In this document: piece by piece, positions 17,819 to 54,280 of the stretch | How positions within the stretch are numbered: position 1 is the first letter of the stretch | Layout: the number at the start of each line of letters is the position of its first letter | Assembly: GCF_001870675.1 (NCBI RefSeq) | Contig: NZ_MEHT01000007.1 | Coordinates: 62,001-126,000, forward strand | Direction: 5' to 3' | DNA length: 64,000 nucleotides | Origin: Roseinatronobacter thiooxidans | Lineage (GTDB): Bacteria > Pseudomonadota > Alphaproteobacteria > Rhodobacterales > Rhodobacteraceae | Position numbers and translations under genes: made by a program | The notes under the pieces: model-generated | What the model was told of the DNA's origin: nothing | Seen by the model: only the letters and a program-made list of their open reading frames with translations | Database searches by the model: none

Positions 17819-19627
17819 TCACCCTTCGGCCTTCTCTGCCAGCGCCAGCCATTCTTCCTCGGCGGCCGCCAGCGCGGATTGGCGCGCGGCAATCGCCTCG
17901 GTCGCTTTGCGGAATTTCACCGGCTCGCGGGTGAACAGTTCGGCATCCGCCAGCAAACCCGCCAGTTTCGCAATCTCCGCTTCCAGCCGTGCAATCTCGG
18001 CGGGCAGTTTTTCCAGCCGGTGCGTCTCGGTATAGCTTAGGCCGGATTTGGGCTTTGCCTTGCCCTTTTCTTTCATGCGCGGGGCGGGGGCCGCCTGTGC
18101 GGCCACGGGGGCTGCGGTATCGGTGCGCTGCGCCTGATAATCCGACCAGCCACCCGCATAGGCGGTCACGCGCCCCTCGCCCTCGAACACCAAGGTGGTC
18201 GAGGCGATGCGGTCGATGAAATCGCGGTCATGGCTGACCAGCAGAACCGTGCCGTCAAACTCGCTTAATATATCCTGCAACAGGTCCAGCGTTTCGACAT
18301 CCAGATCATTGGTCGGCTCGTCCAAGACCAGCAGATTGGCCGGCTGCGCCATGATCCGCGCCAACAGCAGCCGCGCACGCTCGCCCCCTGAAAGCGAGCG
18401 TACTGGCGCGCGCGCCTGCGCCTCGTCAAACAGGAATTCCTTGAGGTAGCCCACCACATGCTTGGGCGTGCCCCGCACCATCACCTGATCGGATTGCCCC
18501 GGCACCCGCATCAGCGGGTCGCCCGTCAGGTTCTCCCAGAGCGAGGCATTGGGGTCCAGCTGCGCGCGGCTCTGGTCGAAAATCGCGGTTTCCAGATTGG
18601 TGCCGCGCCGGATCGTGCCCGAATCCGCCTCTTCCGCGCCGGTGATCATGCGCAGCAGCGTGGTTTTGCCTGCGCCATTGGGGCCAACAAAGGCCACGCG
18701 TTCCCCGCGCATCACCCGAAGCGAGAAATCACGCAGGATCACGCGCTCGCCATAGGCCTTGTGGACATGTTCCAGCTCGGCCACCAGCTTGCCCGACGGG
18801 GCGGCCGATTCCATCGCCATTGCAGCTGTGCCTTGGCGCTTGATCTGGCCCGCGCGTTCGGCGCGCAAATCCTGAAGCGCGCGCACGCGGCCCTGATTGC
18901 GCTTGCGCCGCGCGCTGATCCCTTCCACGGCCCAACGCGCTTCGGCCTTGATCTTGCGGTCAAGCTTGTGGCGCGCGTCATCTTCCTGCGCCCAAAGCGT
19001 GTCGCGCCACTCCTCGAACCCGTCAAATCCGGCCTCGCGGCGGCGCACCTGCCCACGGTCGATCCACAAGGTCGCACGGCTGAGCGCGCGCAGGAAGGCG
19101 CGGTCATGGCTGATCAGCACAAAGGCCGCGCGCGTCTCGCGCAGGCGCGCTTCCAGCCATGCAATGGCGTAGATGTCCAGATGGTTCGTCGGCTCGTCCA
19201 GCAGCATCAATTCAGGCGCTTCGGCCAGCAGCTTCGCCAGCGCCGCGCGCCGCCGCTCGCCGCCCGAGGCGCTTGCAGGGTCAAGGCTGGCATCAAAATC
19301 CAACCCCTCGGCGGCCATGTCGATCCGGTACGTCTCGGCAGGGTCAAGGTTCTGGGTGGCATATTCGCCCAAAGTGGCAAAGCCCGTGAAATCCGGGTCT
19401 TGCTCCATATACCCCACAGTGACCCCGGGCGAGAGGCTGCGCGCGCCCTTGTCGGTCTCGACCAAGGCCGCCATGACCTTCATCAAGGTAGACTTGCCAG
19501 AGCCGTTGCGCCCCACCAGCGCCACGCGGTCGCCCGATTGAATGACCATGTCCAGCCCGTCAAAGACAGGATTGCCGCCATAGGTCAGCGAGATATTCGA
19601 AAGTTGCAAAAGAGGTGTTTGTGCCAT
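17819..19627 (-). CDS. uup: ABC-F family ATPase, Uup-like
   Basis: 602 residues from the ATG at 19627 (upstream in-frame residues fall in a palindromic element and are rejected). Two ATP-binding cassettes: first Walker A GRNGSGKST (about 39-47) with SGGERRR and LLDEPTNHLD; second Walker A GPNGAGKTT with SGGERAR and VLDEPTNDLD. A C-terminal coiled coil (about 530-602, charged Glu/Lys/Leu heptads) is the DNA- or ribosome-binding tail of Uup. No membrane segments are present, so it is a soluble ABC-F protein acting on ribosomes or DNA structure, not a transporter. Confidence 0.92.
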   Translation of the reverse strand: MAQTPLLQLSNISLTYGGNPVFDGLDMVIQSGDRVALVGRNGSGKSTLMKVMAALVETDKGARSLSPGVTVGYMEQDPDFTGFATLGEYATQNLDPAETYRIDMAAEGLDFDASLDPASASGGERRRAALAKLLAEAPELMLLDEPTNHLDIYAIAWLEARLRETRAAFVLISHDRAFLRALSRATLWIDRGQVRRREAGFDGFEEWRDTLWAQEDDARHKLDRKIKAEARWAVEGISARRKRNQGRVRALQDLRAERAGQIKRQGTAAMAMESAAPSGKLVAELEHVHKAYGERVILRDFSLRVMRGERVAFVGPNGAGKTTLLRMITGAEEADSGTIRRGTNLETAIFDQSRAQLDPNASLWENLTGDPLMRVPGQSDQVMVRGTPKHVVGYLKEFLFDEAQARAPVRSLSGGERARLLLARIMAQPANLLVLDEPTNDLDVETLDLLQDILSEFDGTVLLVSHDRDFIDRIASTTLVFEGEGRVTAYAGGWSDYQAQRTDTAAPVAAQAAPAPRMKEKGKAKPKSGLSYTETHRLEKLPAEIARLEAEIAKLAGLLADAELFTREPVKFRKATEAIAARQSALAAAEEEWLALAEKAEG

Positions 19628-19675
19628 GGCCGCGATATAGGCGCGTGTGCGCGGCAGGGAAAGGGGAATTCGCAG

Positions 19676-19768
19676 CCCATGCGCCCCTGCCCGCAGATGA
19701 CCAGCGGCGCGGCGCAGCCGCGACGCGGGGGTGGGTGGGTGGGTCATCTGCGGGAAGGGGCGCATGGG
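19676..19768. repeat. Composite element 1: 27-bp inverted-repeat arms around a hairpin and a G4 motif
   Basis: Arms 19676-19702 and 19742-19768 pair in 26 of 27 positions. Inside lie a 6-bp hairpin with loop GCA (19708-19722) and the G-quadruplex pattern GGGGG-T-GGG-T-GGG-T-GGG (19727-19743). The right arm ends directly at the stop codon of the minus-strand gene at 19769. The same architecture recurs at 20079-20159 with different arm sequence. Confidence 0.8.
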
Positions 19769-20062
19769 TCAGCGCTGGCGCCCGGCCCGCCAGTCCAGCA
19801 CGGCCGCAATCACAGCCTGAATTGCCACAAGATAATCCTGATCCGAGGGCAGAGGCTCAGAAACAGGCTGGCGCGCCAGCGCAACGCTCATCAACGTCCC
19901 GTTGCCAAGGCGCGGATGCACCACCCCAAGCGCCTTGCGGCAACAATCGGCGCAATGGGCCTGATACAGCATCTGCTGCATCACGCCCTGCCACTGGTCC
20001 TGTGGATGGGCCAGCATCACACGCGCTGCCGCGCGGATATCGCCCTGCGTGATCTCACGCAT
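19769..20062 (-). CDS. Small conserved protein after the GTA operon, unknown function
   Basis: 97 residues. No signal peptide or membrane segment. A cysteine-rich centre (HCADCCRKAL, about residue 45) and the C-terminal VAIQAVIAAVLDWRAGRQR helix are the visible features. It is the first gene beyond orfg15 in the same direction and is bracketed by the two composite elements. I recall similar small proteins following orfg15 in other Rhodobacteraceae, but no function is known and it may simply be a neighbour. An ATG at 20062 is used because the longer in-frame start would run through the element at 20079-20159. Confidence 0.65.
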   Translation of the reverse strand: MREITQGDIRAAARVMLAHPQDQWQGVMQQMLYQAHCADCCRKALGVVHPRLGNGTLMSVALARQPVSEPLPSDQDYLVAIQAVIAAVLDWRAGRQR

Positions 20063-20078
20063 CCCCGCCCCCGCCAGA

Positions 20079-20159
20079 CGCCCCCGCGCGCAGGCGGCAA
20101 GCAAACCGGCGCAGCCGGTTTGCGGGGGTGGGCGGGCGGGCCGCCTGCGCGCGGGGGCG
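20079..20159. repeat. Composite element 2: 20-bp inverted-repeat arms around a hairpin and a G4 motif
   Basis: Arms 20079-20098 and 20140-20159 are perfectly complementary. Inside are a 10-bp hairpin with loop GCA (20101-20123) and GGGGG-T-GGG-C-GGG-C-GGG (20124-20140). It begins 2 bases after the orfg15 stop. The arm sequence is unrelated to element 1 while loop, order and G4 are kept. Confidence 0.8.
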
Positions 20160-20161
20160 CG

Positions 20162-23100
20162 TCACACCCCGATCTCCAGCCGCGCAAAGGGGCCGGGACC
20201 AAACACATCCGACACTTGCGCCACTTCCAGCGCGAAACTGCCCTCAACCCCGTCCTGCACTTGCGCAAGGCTGGAATACACGAACTCTGGCGCGTCACAA
20301 TCCACCGCGCGCAGCACCGCGCCACCCTTTCGCACCTGCACAACATAGCGCTCATAGGTTTCCGACAGCGGCACCTCTGCCGCGCCCCAGCCATCGCCGC
20401 CGCGCCGCGTGCGCCGCACCCATGTCAGATGCACATCCCCCAACGCATCCCACCGCGCGCGCAGATGCGCAGGCCGGTAGGGCCGCAACCCCACCCCCTG
20501 AAACACCGCGCTGATATCGCGCTGGCTGGGGTCACCCAGCGGGCGGCTGGCAGGCCCTATGCGGTAGCCCCGCTCCAGCCCCAGCGCATCCAGCGGCAGG
20601 GCGATCTGCGCCAATGCGCTATCCACCATCACCACCAGCGCCCCCGGTGCCCAGACCTGCGGCATCACCCCATCCGTGCCGTACTGGCCCCGCAGACGCA
20701 GCCGCAGATCATACAGGCCCGGTTCAATCAGTTCCGCCTCCGCAAACTGGAACAGCTCCCACAGCACCCCATCCCCGATCGCCATCAGATTGGCCCCGCC
20801 CAGCACGGCGGCAGGCGGCGCAGATGCCAACTGCCCCGACAGCATCCGCACCCGCAACGCAGGCCCCCGATCCCACAGCCCCGCGCCTGCGGCAAACAGC
20901 GCGGTCTGGCTTACGCCCAGCCGCGCGGGCTGTGCAAGCAGCGCTTCCAGTTCAAACATATCCGGCGCGGCTTGGTGATGCACTGCCACCACCCCCGGCC
21001 AGGCCCGCGCAGACACGGCCAGCCACGGGTTTTGCGCCACCTCCTCGCCGGTGATCAGGGGCAGGTCCAGAAAGACAGGCTGCACCGGCGCGGGCGCGGG
21101 GCTGCGCATCAGCGCAGACCCGGTGCGCGCTGTGTCGCCCCACGCGTAGGGCGCATCCTCGACGCGCGTGGCCTCGAACGCGCGCCCGCCTGCAAGGGTT
21201 GCGCGGTCGATCCGCCACAGCGCCGCGCCCGCCCCCATATCCAGCGCCACTACATCGCCCGCGCCCAACCCGCGCGAGGGGGGCACAGCAAACCGCGCCG
21301 TGTCGCGCGCAACCCGCGCCTGCGCCAGCCAGCGTTCCGCAATCAACACCCCCTCGCCCCCTGTCAGCACCAGCGGCAGGTCAGAACCCGAGGCGCGGCG
21401 CTCACTCTCGCCCGGAAAGCTTGCCTCGGCCACGCGCATCTCGAAATCCGCGCCCTCCTCGACATAGCCCAGCCGCACGCGCCCCGAGACTTCCGCCTCT
21501 GGCGCGCGGATCACCACCAGATCACCGCTGTCGTTGCGCACCAGATCATCCGGCCCCAGATGCGCCACCGCGCGCCCGTTGCGCATCTGGAAAATCAGAC
21601 GGCCCTCGCGCTCTACCGCTTCGACGCCATAGGCCAGCATCAGCGCCTGCAACATCGCGCGCGGTGCCTCGGTCGAGGGCATGGCAAAGCCGCGCACCAC
21701 CCCATGCACGCGGCGGGTATCGACATCTGCAAGACCTGCGCGCGCGCAAATCTCGGCAATCACCGCGTCCAGCGGCTGCGCGCTGGCGCGCCCTATAATC
21801 CAGTGCCCGCGCGCCCAGTTGGCCCCGTCCGACCACAATGCCTGATTGCCCGGAAACCACGGATAGGGCCGCGCATCCCATGCCCAGACATGCGCGCGGT
21901 CCATATCGACCATACGCCCGCCATAAATCTCGGAAATCGGGTTATGCGCAGGCTCTGCCCAATAGGCATTCACCGCACGGATATATTGCATCTGGATCGC
22001 ATCATCGCGCCACCCGCGCGAGAAATAGGGCACAAAGGATTCCGATGATTTCGGGTCCAGAAATACATTGGGCTGGTTCGTGCCCCGATCTATTGCCGCA
22101 CAGCCGTATTCGGTAAACCAGAATGGTTTCGAGCGCGGCACCCATGCCGTCGGGCTGGACGCACGCACGCCCCCCACGCGGTCATGGTGGTCATTCTCCC
22201 ACCAGCCGCGCAAATCCTTGTAGCGCCAGATCCAGTGTTCCTGCCAGTCCGAGCTGTCGGCAATCGGCGTGCGGTTCTGCATCCGGCGGTCGGTTTGCGT
22301 GGCATAGAACCAGTCAAACCCCTCGCCCCCCGCCACATTGGCGCGCAAATACTCCAGATTATGCACATCGCCCCAGCCCGCATCCAGATGGTCCGTGCCA
22401 TCGCGCCAATCCGACAGCGGCATGTAATTGTCGATGCCGATGAAATCGATCATGTCATCCGCCCAAAGCGGGTCGAGATGGAAGAAACGGTCGCCCTGCG
22501 CCGTGATATAGCCGAAATATTCCGACCAGTCGGCGGCATAGGTCAGTTTCACCTCTGGCCCCAATAGGGCGCGCACCTCGGCGGCCAGCGCGATCAGGGC
22601 GGCCACAGCGGGAAAGCTGTTGCCCGCGCCGCGAATCTGCGTCAGCCCCCGCATTTCAGAGCCGATGCAAAACGCATCCACCCCGCCCGCCGCCTTGCAC
22701 AGCGCGGCCTGATGCAGGATGAATCGCCGGTAGCGCCAGTCTGACGGGCCGGAATAGGTGATTTCCCCATCCGCGATGGTGAAATCACTGGCCTGCGCCG
22801 TGCCGAAGAACGCCGCAACCTCGGCGCTCGCGGCCTCTGTCCCATCAGCGCTGCCGCTTTGGCCCGGGGCTTTGGTGGTGGTGATGCGCCCGCGCCATGG
22901 CAAAATGGGCTGGTCTTCTGCATCAGACCACGGGTCGGGCAGGCCGTTTTCGGGCAGGATTTCCATCAGGATGAACGGGTAATACACCACCGCCTGCCCC
23001 TGCGCCTTCAGCGCCGCGATGGCCTGCAAGACCGAAGCATCAGAGGGCGTGCCGCCATAGACAGGGCGGCCATTCAGGCGGGGGATTTCGGGCGTATCAA

Positions 23101-24079
23101 GCGCACCGCGCCCCGCGACGGACCAAGGCTGATCCGGCGCGGTCCGGTCGGAATATTCGACCTTGGGCGCAATCTCGCACAGGCCCGCCCGCAAGTCAGA
23201 CCCGAACCAAGACACAATCAACAGGCTGGATTGCACATGCGGCAATTCCCGCGCCAGCGCCTCCAAGGACGCGGCAATATCCGTTAACCCTGTGGCCGAA
23301 TTCAGGTTCATGGGCTGCGTGTCCGCATGCGGCAAAGCGTCAAAATCGCTGTCTGTCGCGCGCACATAAACAGGGCTGCTTGCCAGCGCAAAATCACCAG
23401 AGCCGGGCATCACCGCCACCGCGCGCAGATGATCACTCAGCGATTGGGGCGTGTCGCTTTGGGTGTTGCGGATCACCTCGAAACTCAGTTGCGGGACGCG
23501 GTTGCCGAACTCGCCCAGCTCCAGATCCTCGATCACCAGATAGGCCACACCGCGATAGGCCGGCACCCGCCCTGCCCCCTCAAGCGCTTCAATCAGCGGG
23601 TCGGGAAGCTGGTCTTCCCCGCCGTGATACAGGCGAAGGTTCAAATCTGACGGGGCAAGTTCCTGCCCATCCGCCCAGATGCGCCCGACCCCAAGGATCG
23701 GCCCTTCGCATAGTGCAACCGCAAGCGACACCGAATAGCTGAATTCCCTGACACGGGGCCTTCTGACAATCTTGCCGCCCCCGCCCCGCGTGGTCACGCT
23801 TTCGCGGAATGCGCTGGCCCAGATCACCTGCCCGCCCAGCCGCACGCGCCCCCAGACGCGCGGCACCGGCGCGCCTTCGCTGGCCCCTGTCAGGCGCAGC
23901 CGGTCGATCCGGCCATGCTCGATTACCTGAGAGCCGCCGCCCATCAGCCGCTGGTCGATCACGCGCCCCAAAGTTGCGCCCACCGCGCGCCCGATCACCA
24001 TGCCCGACAAGCCCAGAACCGAGCCGCCAAAACCGGACCCGACCGCCGCGCCCACTGCTGAAAGCACCAAGGTTGCCAT
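20162..24079 (-). CDS. GTA orfg15: tail-tip megatron protein with TIM-barrel domain
   Basis: 1305 residues, the family's usual length. A glycine-rich hydrophobic N-terminus (about residues 1-45) is followed by phage-tail beta domains, a glycoside-hydrolase-like TIM barrel (GTA_TIM, about 430-740; FIGIDNYMPLSDW, YGCAAIDRGTN), a second tail-protein domain (about 770-1000; VRLGYVEEGADF) and a C-terminal host-recognition-type region. In the R. capsulatus particle this protein forms the tip of the tail beneath the hub and helps penetrate the recipient envelope. It is the last gene of the cluster, with a composite IR/G4 element right after its stop. No frameshift is seen. Confidence 0.95.
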   Translation of the reverse strand: MATLVLSAVGAAVGSGFGGSVLGLSGMVIGRAVGATLGRVIDQRLMGGGSQVIEHGRIDRLRLTGASEGAPVPRVWGRVRLGGQVIWASAFRESVTTRGGGGKIVRRPRVREFSYSVSLAVALCEGPILGVGRIWADGQELAPSDLNLRLYHGGEDQLPDPLIEALEGAGRVPAYRGVAYLVIEDLELGEFGNRVPQLSFEVIRNTQSDTPQSLSDHLRAVAVMPGSGDFALASSPVYVRATDSDFDALPHADTQPMNLNSATGLTDIAASLEALARELPHVQSSLLIVSWFGSDLRAGLCEIAPKVEYSDRTAPDQPWSVAGRGALDTPEIPRLNGRPVYGGTPSDASVLQAIAALKAQGQAVVYYPFILMEILPENGLPDPWSDAEDQPILPWRGRITTTKAPGQSGSADGTEAASAEVAAFFGTAQASDFTIADGEITYSGPSDWRYRRFILHQAALCKAAGGVDAFCIGSEMRGLTQIRGAGNSFPAVAALIALAAEVRALLGPEVKLTYAADWSEYFGYITAQGDRFFHLDPLWADDMIDFIGIDNYMPLSDWRDGTDHLDAGWGDVHNLEYLRANVAGGEGFDWFYATQTDRRMQNRTPIADSSDWQEHWIWRYKDLRGWWENDHHDRVGGVRASSPTAWVPRSKPFWFTEYGCAAIDRGTNQPNVFLDPKSSESFVPYFSRGWRDDAIQMQYIRAVNAYWAEPAHNPISEIYGGRMVDMDRAHVWAWDARPYPWFPGNQALWSDGANWARGHWIIGRASAQPLDAVIAEICARAGLADVDTRRVHGVVRGFAMPSTEAPRAMLQALMLAYGVEAVEREGRLIFQMRNGRAVAHLGPDDLVRNDSGDLVVIRAPEAEVSGRVRLGYVEEGADFEMRVAEASFPGESERRASGSDLPLVLTGGEGVLIAERWLAQARVARDTARFAVPPSRGLGAGDVVALDMGAGAALWRIDRATLAGGRAFEATRVEDAPYAWGDTARTGSALMRSPAPAPVQPVFLDLPLITGEEVAQNPWLAVSARAWPGVVAVHHQAAPDMFELEALLAQPARLGVSQTALFAAGAGLWDRGPALRVRMLSGQLASAPPAAVLGGANLMAIGDGVLWELFQFAEAELIEPGLYDLRLRLRGQYGTDGVMPQVWAPGALVVMVDSALAQIALPLDALGLERGYRIGPASRPLGDPSQRDISAVFQGVGLRPYRPAHLRARWDALGDVHLTWVRRTRRGGDGWGAAEVPLSETYERYVVQVRKGGAVLRAVDCDAPEFVYSSLAQVQDGVEGSFALEVAQVSDVFGPGPFARLEIGV

Positions 24080-54251: not shown

Positions 54252-54280
54252 GGCCTGCCCCCATGCTATGGGGGCAGGCC
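54252..54280 (+). terminator. 13-bp hairpin after the symporter
   Basis: GGCCTGCCCCCAT and ATGGGGGCAGGCC form a perfect stem with loop GCT, 17 bases after the stop. No T-run, so it may be a partial terminator before the regulatory genes. Confidence 0.55.

Follow-up and report, generated by a model that had tools for sequence, protein, structure and literature searches.

REP and BIME elements are extragenic palindromes associated with RAYT transposases, and intrinsic terminators are hairpins of free sequence that follow stop codons. The elements described here, called G4-hairpins, share with the former the nature of extragenic palindromes, however most of their arms have no family sequence and no Y1 transposase is present in two copy-rich genomes. 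They differ from intrinsic terminators as well, because the two elements of the analysed window have no T-run and the pattern of arm mismatches points to the template strand. Intergenic quadruplex motifs with a hairpin alternative, located near gene ends, have been reported as rPQS in Methanomicrobiaceae; in the accessible part of that report a C-rich tract pairs with the G-runs and hairpin and quadruplex compete (PMC8044849), whereas in the G4-hairpins arms of free sequence enclose an unpaired G-run. The BoxC/PIT motifs of E. coli are also intergenic single-strand DNA folds with a G-rich part, but they are presented in the available text as triplexes with a shared homopurine strand (PMC4666352), in place of the mixed-sequence arms and quadruplex motif seen here. 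GGGAATC repeats of Xanthomonas and Nostoc are likewise G-rich, occur near stops and between aligned genes and are rare between divergent genes; as far as the accessible text of the report goes, they are tandem heptamers found on the sense strand near stops (PMC4692102), in contrast to G-runs that lie mostly on the template strand within free-sequence arms. Finally, the targets of diversity-generating retroelements comprise a DNA hairpin near the stop in which stem structure counts over stem sequence, as in the present case. Unlike the G4-hairpins, they have 7-10 bp stems and GRNA loops, are tied to a retroelement and carry no quadruplex motif in the part of the report available (PMC3240598).

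No description of an element of such a design was found among the top-ranked papers of the open-access literature searched. The G4-hairpins also fail the membership tests tried for known palindromic elements. The function of chromosomal quadruplexes in bacteria is hard to settle from counts of G-rich motifs. Here covarying arms, a four-run threshold, the choice of spacers and strand-specific mismatches can all be read from the sequence, with many natural replicates. DNA quadruplex function thereby becomes testable in culturable relatives, and DNA-level tuning of genes inside operons could be revealed. If the interpretation given below is true, the comparison of genomes would be evidence that bacterial DNA is selected for its ability to fold into quadruplexes.

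The two elements and their flanking genes

The window is a stretch of 64,000 nucleotides of Roseinatronobacter thiooxidans (contig NZ_MEHT01000007.1, positions 62,001 to 126,000), to which all coordinates refer. The two elements, their parts and the neighbouring genes are as follows.

17819-19627, - strand: ATPase gene downstream of element 1, which we take to be uup or Uup-like (Pfam: two ABC_tran stretches and ABC_tran_CTD)
19676-19768: element 1, arms of 27 nt, 96% complementary
19676-19702, + strand: element 1, 27-nt 5' arm of the G strand, inverted repeat with 19742-19768
19704-19726, + strand: element 1, inner hairpin closed by a C(GCA)G loop
19727-19743, + strand: element 1, G-run GGGGGTGGGTGGGTGGG, exact match to the motif
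19742-19768, + strand: element 1, 3' arm on the G strand, its first two G belonging also to the G-run
19769-20062, - strand: 97-codon gene between the elements, DUF7742 by Pfam, start from a home-made gene finder
20079-20159: element 2, arms of 20 nt, 100% complementary
20079-20098, + strand: element 2, 20-nt 5' arm of the G strand, inverted repeat with 20140-20159, covarying in orthologues
20099-20100, + strand: element 2, AA linker from arm to inner hairpin (AA or GA in all 17 alignment rows)
20101-20123, + strand: element 2, inner hairpin closed by a C(GCA)G loop (10-bp stem, loop GCA)
20124-20140, + strand, the template strand of the flanking genes: element 2, G-run GGGGGTGGGCGGGCGGG, exact match to the four-run quadruplex motif
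20140-20159, + strand: element 2, 3' arm on the G strand, its first G common to the G-run
20162-24079, - strand: GTA tail protein gene upstream of element 2 (Pfam: GTA_TIM, Phage-tail_3, Rcc01698_C)

On the + strand both elements have the same order of arm, short A linker, small hairpin with GCA loop, G-run and arm. They are palindromes around GGGGGTGGGYGGGYGGG, which is matched exactly by both G-runs, and the quadruplex motif (four G-runs of at least three, short loops) is likewise present in exact form in both. The original prediction of two composite elements with almost perfectly pairing arms, GCA loops and a perfect G-quadruplex motif was borne out, the GCA loops lying on the + strand. 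It also placed the elements 0-2 bases past the stops of minus-strand genes, correctly: element 1 directly adjoins the DUF7742 stop and lies 48 nt ahead of the ATPase start (an ATG read from the sequence, the gene finder having favoured an upstream start at 19765), and element 2 lies 2 nt from the stop of the GTA gene and 16 nt ahead of the next start. The assertion that the arms are unrelated between the two elements was only partly right, as their 87-nt blocks align without gaps at 72%; arms of most other copies are unrelated to each other at the threshold used. The gene-sense strand folds with z-scores of -8.7 and -5.2 in the two elements, and equally stable shuffles were 0 of 200 for either. 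With the settings used, their arm scores of 24 and 20 are the highest among 8 hairpins of the window, followed by 13. Elsewhere in the window (54252-54280) a perfect 13-bp hairpin with a 3-nt loop and co-directional genes on either side has no G-run and looks ordinary.

Several known identities were tried and rejected for the window elements. An intrinsic (Rho-independent) terminator is contradicted by the absence of a sense T-run longer than 3 after both elements, and a scanner restricted to loops of 3-8 found no site. Integron attC sites have the core sites RYYYAAC/GTTRRRY; none of the 30 GTTRRRY matches of the window falls inside either element. A search of 19400-20400 against Rfam families returned two hits below the gathering score, neither inside an element. 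A BoxC/PIT intrastrand triplex was dismissed too, the arms being of mixed sequence (judged by eye) with no homopurine strand shared by two hairpins.

Copies in the source genome and in relatives

Further instances of the design, looked for after the original prediction, were found in the same genome and in relatives. The G4-hairpin is not confined to the GTA operon; other copies in the source genome follow other genes, and one lies between phnI and phnJ. The pattern GGGNGGGNGGGNGGG has 11 matches in this genome of 3.5 Mb. All ten with T or C spacers lie in inverted repeats (arm scores 13 to 25), and the eleventh, which has a G spacer and lies inside a predicted gene, has no hairpin (score 6). 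The three-run motif GGGTGGGYGGG occurs at 9 sites of the genome, two of them near-identical, with a hairpin in 0 of 9 (scores 5 to 8). Since hairpins accompany all T/C-spaced four-run motifs and no three-run motif, the boundary is marked by the fourth run, the one that a quadruplex needs. A C-rich RNA loop as the driver was rejected on the same 0 of 9 three-run C loops and on the lack of U spacers at the GTA site (the position of element 2), where, read on the G strand, each of the 51 spacer positions of 17 orthologues is T or C. Three rows of that alignment (L226, L228, L229) have an imperfect G-run. The A-spaced form GGGAGGGAGGGAGGG was found in only 5 of 394 genomes of the family, against 37 for the T-spaced form, and a hairpin surrounds it in 0 of 5 (scores 4 to 8). 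Single-base pyrimidine loops agree with a stable quadruplex: in the accessible part of one report d(G3T)4 is anomalously stable, and the effects of loop bases on quadruplexes are context-dependent (PMC12650012).

In a sample of 60 genomes of relatives GGGTGGGTGGGTGGG is present in 27, the source genome included, and all 27 are among the 36 genomes of the same genus. By its GTA protein the window comes closest, among named records, to Roseinatronobacter, Natronohydrobacter and Roseibaca, with which it probably belongs, and to further Rhodobacteraceae. In the family sample, with about one genome per genus, it occurs in 37 of 394 genomes or 36 of 393 genera, so the exact T-spaced form is absent from most genera of the family. 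The class sample gave 2 of 385 genomes, namely the source genome and 1 of 380 outside the family, a near-absence that is to be taken as a rough comparison only, the sample being unmatched for G+C and genome size; the two copies of that single outside genome (L349, L350) have no arms (scores 7 and 6). Altogether 127 exact (GGGT)3GGG matches were counted in the genus (summed by hand), of which 96 were examined (7 of the source genome, 29 and 60 other stretches) and 31 left out (23 further copies of genome G015 and 8 near contig ends). For the rest of the family, 141 matches were counted in the sample (also summed by hand), from which 30 automatic loci and 40 further stretches were examined. One genus, represented by genome G097, has 72 exact matches, far more than the others, and nine places of it were examined (L194, L309-L316).

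Among 172 distinct copies an arm score of at least 9 was reached by 163 (94/100 in the genus, 69/72 in other genera) and a score of at least 12 by 145 (86 and 59), compared to 29 and 0 of 552 random places. These copies were collected by the T-spaced motif, and related ones are not independent. The nine copies scoring below 9 (L057, L061, L062, L120, L131, L132, L184, L185, L345) were kept in the counts; the armless L057, L061, L062, L120 and L131 lie near contig ends.

The arm sequences are diverse. At the threshold used 107 of the 163 copies share their arm sequence with no other copy, on which ground, with one subfamily as an exception, a REP/RAYT identity defined by a conserved palindrome was rejected. 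The other mark of that identity, the Y1 transposase, is absent from 7 of 9 genomes, including the source genome, G015 and G097, and present in G001 and G300. The exception is a single-linkage arm cluster of 25 copies with the core AGCGCC..GGCGCT which spans two genera. The arms of this dispersed subfamily are near AGCGCCC(T/C)CGGGCCGYGC (L055, L149, L155, L156, L158-L163, L165, L166, L312, L314-L316 and others), 14 of its copies lie between convergent genes and some stems resemble intrinsic terminators. A cluster of 9 includes the phnI-phnJ copy of the source genome (PhnI and PhnJ by Pfam). Arms of the GCGCGCCC type were seen in L047, which is this phnI-phnJ copy, and in L048, L058, L068, L071, L076 and L142, at 20-23 nt past a gene end and, in 6 of 7, at 11-14 nt ahead of the next start.

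The history of the GTA site could be followed in 26 loci assigned to the genus (L224-L247, L249, L250). A four-run motif is present in 15, two of which are cut by a contig end and one of which (L247) has no clear arms; the motif is damaged in 3 and missing in 3, and in 5 the contig ends before the site. L234 kept the arms and the inner hairpin and lost the run, as if the quadruplex part alone had been deleted, and L236 and L250 also lack the motif. Among 54 loci of other genera two contigs end too early, and the element was found in 1 of the 52 readable ones (L253, Rhabdonatronobacter). In several loci without the element a start codon lies no more than a few bases from the stop (for example L256, L263, L267, L268, L273). 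At the site of element 1, L232 carries the element reversed, on the sense strand between co-directional genes, where it overlaps the end of the predicted small gene, and in L253 the sense strand of the small gene carries the G-run, the next gene there being convergent. Draft contigs L224, L230, L233, L235, L238, L241 and L242 end just before or inside the GTA-site element, and the strong hairpin is a likely cause of these breaks through a stop in sequencing or assembly.

Pairing of the arms and the strand that probably folds

Covariation was read from a GTA-site alignment of 17 sequences. On the G strand 98.1% of the cells of the outer helix are paired; 13 of its 21 pairs changed on both sides and 8 are invariant. 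In the inner hairpin 7 of 10 pairs changed on both sides, with 73.5% of cells paired in fixed columns. The covariation score was reached by 0 of 500 shuffles. Together with the enclosing arms of 163 copies, these double changes uphold the earlier proposal of selection on structure. Counted on the C strand, the figures are nearly as good (96.2% paired, with 13/21 outer and 7/10 inner pairs changed on both sides), hence covariation alone picks no strand. In most copies the arms closely border the G-run.

The mismatches left in the arms are strongly asymmetric. On the C strand of all copies A.C was counted 102 times vs 8 for G.U, C.C 61 vs 5 for G.G, and C.T 46 vs 13 for G.A, with the same tendency in the genus (64:5, 33:2 and 25:8) and in other genera (38:3, 28:3 and 21:5). 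Read on the G strand, the prevailing types are G.T, G.G and G.A, the better tolerated DNA mismatches in order of stability. The bias has one direction in each context that contains mismatches, whether the C-run is in sense (++) or antisense (--) or the genes are convergent or divergent; in the ++ context alone A.C to G.U is 50 vs 2, and on these counts, too, an intrinsic terminator was rejected. When each element had one vote and only positions beyond 6 bp from the loop were considered, the result was 33:6 (55 ties) in the genus and 25:4 (40 ties) in other genera. No such bias is seen in 65 ordinary control hairpins after stops (A.C 7, G.U 12; C.C 1, G.G 5; C.T 9, G.A 8). Arm energies, which restate the mismatch counts, are better on the G strand in 115 of 122 mismatched copies with DNA parameters and in 102 of 122 with RNA parameters.

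The inner loops of 35 rows comprise 16 with C(GNA)G or GNA on the G strand, none with GNA on the C strand, 14 of another kind and 5 without a loop. Because element 2 and L075 each appear twice and the GTA site supplies 10 of the 16, only about six GNA sites are independent. Control triloops have GNA on either strand in 24 of 159 cases. GNA mini-hairpins are described, in the part of the report available, as extraordinarily stable DNA structures (PMC4686876). If a sense RNA hairpin were selected, the tolerated mismatches would be expected as G.U on the sense strand, which is not seen. The mismatch and loop patterns indicate the G strand of DNA, because RNA of the G strand is unexpected in ++ contexts, antisense transcription being nevertheless possible. 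It can be said that a structural family with a strand preference is highly probable on the comparative evidence; from the same patterns we infer that the G-rich strand of the DNA would be under selection to form a hairpin with a quadruplex cap.

Placement and proposed effect on transcription

As the original prediction had it for the two sites, the G-run lies on the template strand of the flanking genes. By orientation of the C strand, copies of the genus with an arm score of at least 9 are divided into 53 ++, 5 --, 30 convergent, 0 divergent and 6 incomplete cases, which means that in 53 of 58 co-directional cases the C-run is in the sense of the upstream gene and its template strand bears the G-run. 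Measured from the stop of a + gene, the median distance is 17 nt, with 62 of 85 copies within 30 nt; for the five reversed cases the end of the other gene is 1 to 15 nt away. Genes were called with a home-made finder that had been trained on the window, and 3 of 55 ++ cases, one of them element 1, fell within an open frame. Other genera have 34 ++, 11 --, 16 convergent, 7 divergent and 1 incomplete cases; with 11 of 45 co-directional copies reversed and 7 divergent, placement is looser there. Template-strand placement of the G-run is a bias and no rule. A second type of placement is suggested by some copies of other genera (L168, L321, L323, L330, L340), which are flanked by divergent genes and have 35-152 nt between them and the nearer start.

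The best explanation, still a tentative one given that it is drawn from sequence comparison, is that a quadruplex-capped hairpin extruded on the template G strand acts as a partial polymerase roadblock after the stop. The G-rich strand would form a long hairpin that has a highly stable parallel quadruplex as its loop and, in some copies, an additional small hairpin next to the quadruplex. Arm sequence is not fixed; only the pairing and the four G-runs with single pyrimidine spacers are conserved. Where a transcribed gene ends, supercoiling or opening of the strands would permit extrusion from duplex DNA, and the arms might supply the extrusion that a bare quadruplex lacks; in the accessible part of one study no bare quadruplex was seen to arise from supercoiling by itself (PMC7023247). 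Read-through might then be dampened, and the roadblock would set the level of the next gene, here the DUF7742 gene and the presumed uup-like gene, elsewhere in the genome phnJ and others. It is possible, though not to be assumed, that the folded template strand hinders the polymerase and lowers expression of the next gene. The original prediction had already suggested that the G-run could block RNA polymerase and insulate uup from the GTA operon. Family-wide, the G4-hairpins could, with similar reserve, serve as punctuation at the level of DNA, not RNA, in which the template strand folds after the stop and acts on the polymerase, the arms being free to change as long as the G strand folds. A template block would stop the polymerase before the 3' arm is transcribed, leaving no RNA-level role for the arms. 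The same study (PMC7023247), in its accessible part, found that transcription formed the (G3T)n quadruplex when the non-template strand was the G strand; template orientation may therefore be a way of avoiding the quadruplex or its damage.

The latter possibility leads to a DNA-topology or protein site, a supercoil sink or a target of a nucleoid protein or helicase, which would not act directly on the polymerase and whose template orientation would avoid co-transcriptional quadruplex damage. It is consistent with a G-strand preference independent of gene orientation, with frequent placement between convergent genes (30 of 94 in the genus) and with the available data on (G3T)8 in E. coli, for which the template orientation is far less mutagenic (PMC7023247); nevertheless it seems unlikely, as the strong template bias and the closeness to stops in the genus suggest a link to transcription. 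Similarly doubtful is an RNA-level 3'-end element, that is a hairpin of the sense transcript with a C-rich loop which terminates transcription or, in the manner of intercistronic hairpins, shields the upstream mRNA against decay from its 3' end. Copies that follow stops and have the C-run in sense would suit it, and the predicted folding energies of sense RNA of the window elements, short flanks included, are -77 and -72 kcal/mol. Stems resembling terminators are found in one subfamily (AAAGCGCC..GGCGCTTT), and the phnI-phnJ copy has counterparts at similar spacing in six other genomes, where it should be kept in mind that full termination between phnI and phnJ would silence the operon. However, the sense-strand mismatches A.C, C.C and C.U are the wrong kind for RNA even in ++ alone, no T-run follows either window element on the sense strand, three-run C loops are never in a hairpin (0 of 9), and no GTA-site spacer reads U or C on the sense strand.

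A mobile palindromic element, spreading as single-stranded DNA and landing in safe places after stops, would account for a GTA site that is occupied in most readable loci of the genus and in 1 of 52 readable loci of other genera, for the reversed element of L232, for the subfamily of 25 with similar arms in two genera and for 72 exact matches in one genome. It is distinctly unlikely in view of the 107 of 163 copies with unshared arms, the lack of a Y1 transposase in the source genome and in the copy-rich G015 and G097, and the very regular placement in the genus. Template switching is a known source of palindromes, and the G4-hairpins could be a by-product of replication, in which the polymerase stalls at the quadruplex and the new strand folds back and copies itself into functionless palindromes. 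The close bordering of the G-run by arms in most copies agrees with such an origin; it is very improbable all the same, because the copies outside the family (L349, L350) and the A-spaced runs (0 of 5) are armless, compensatory changes occur at one site across the genus and the elements are placed after stops.

The literature consulted on the RNA side yielded no paper on C-rich hairpin loops in Rhodobacter terminators (open-access literature). In the source genome one G4-hairpin between convergent genes (L008/L046, G000:C46 near 69947) is adjoined by a hairpin that resembles a bidirectional terminator, having a T-run at one flank and an A-run at the opposite one.
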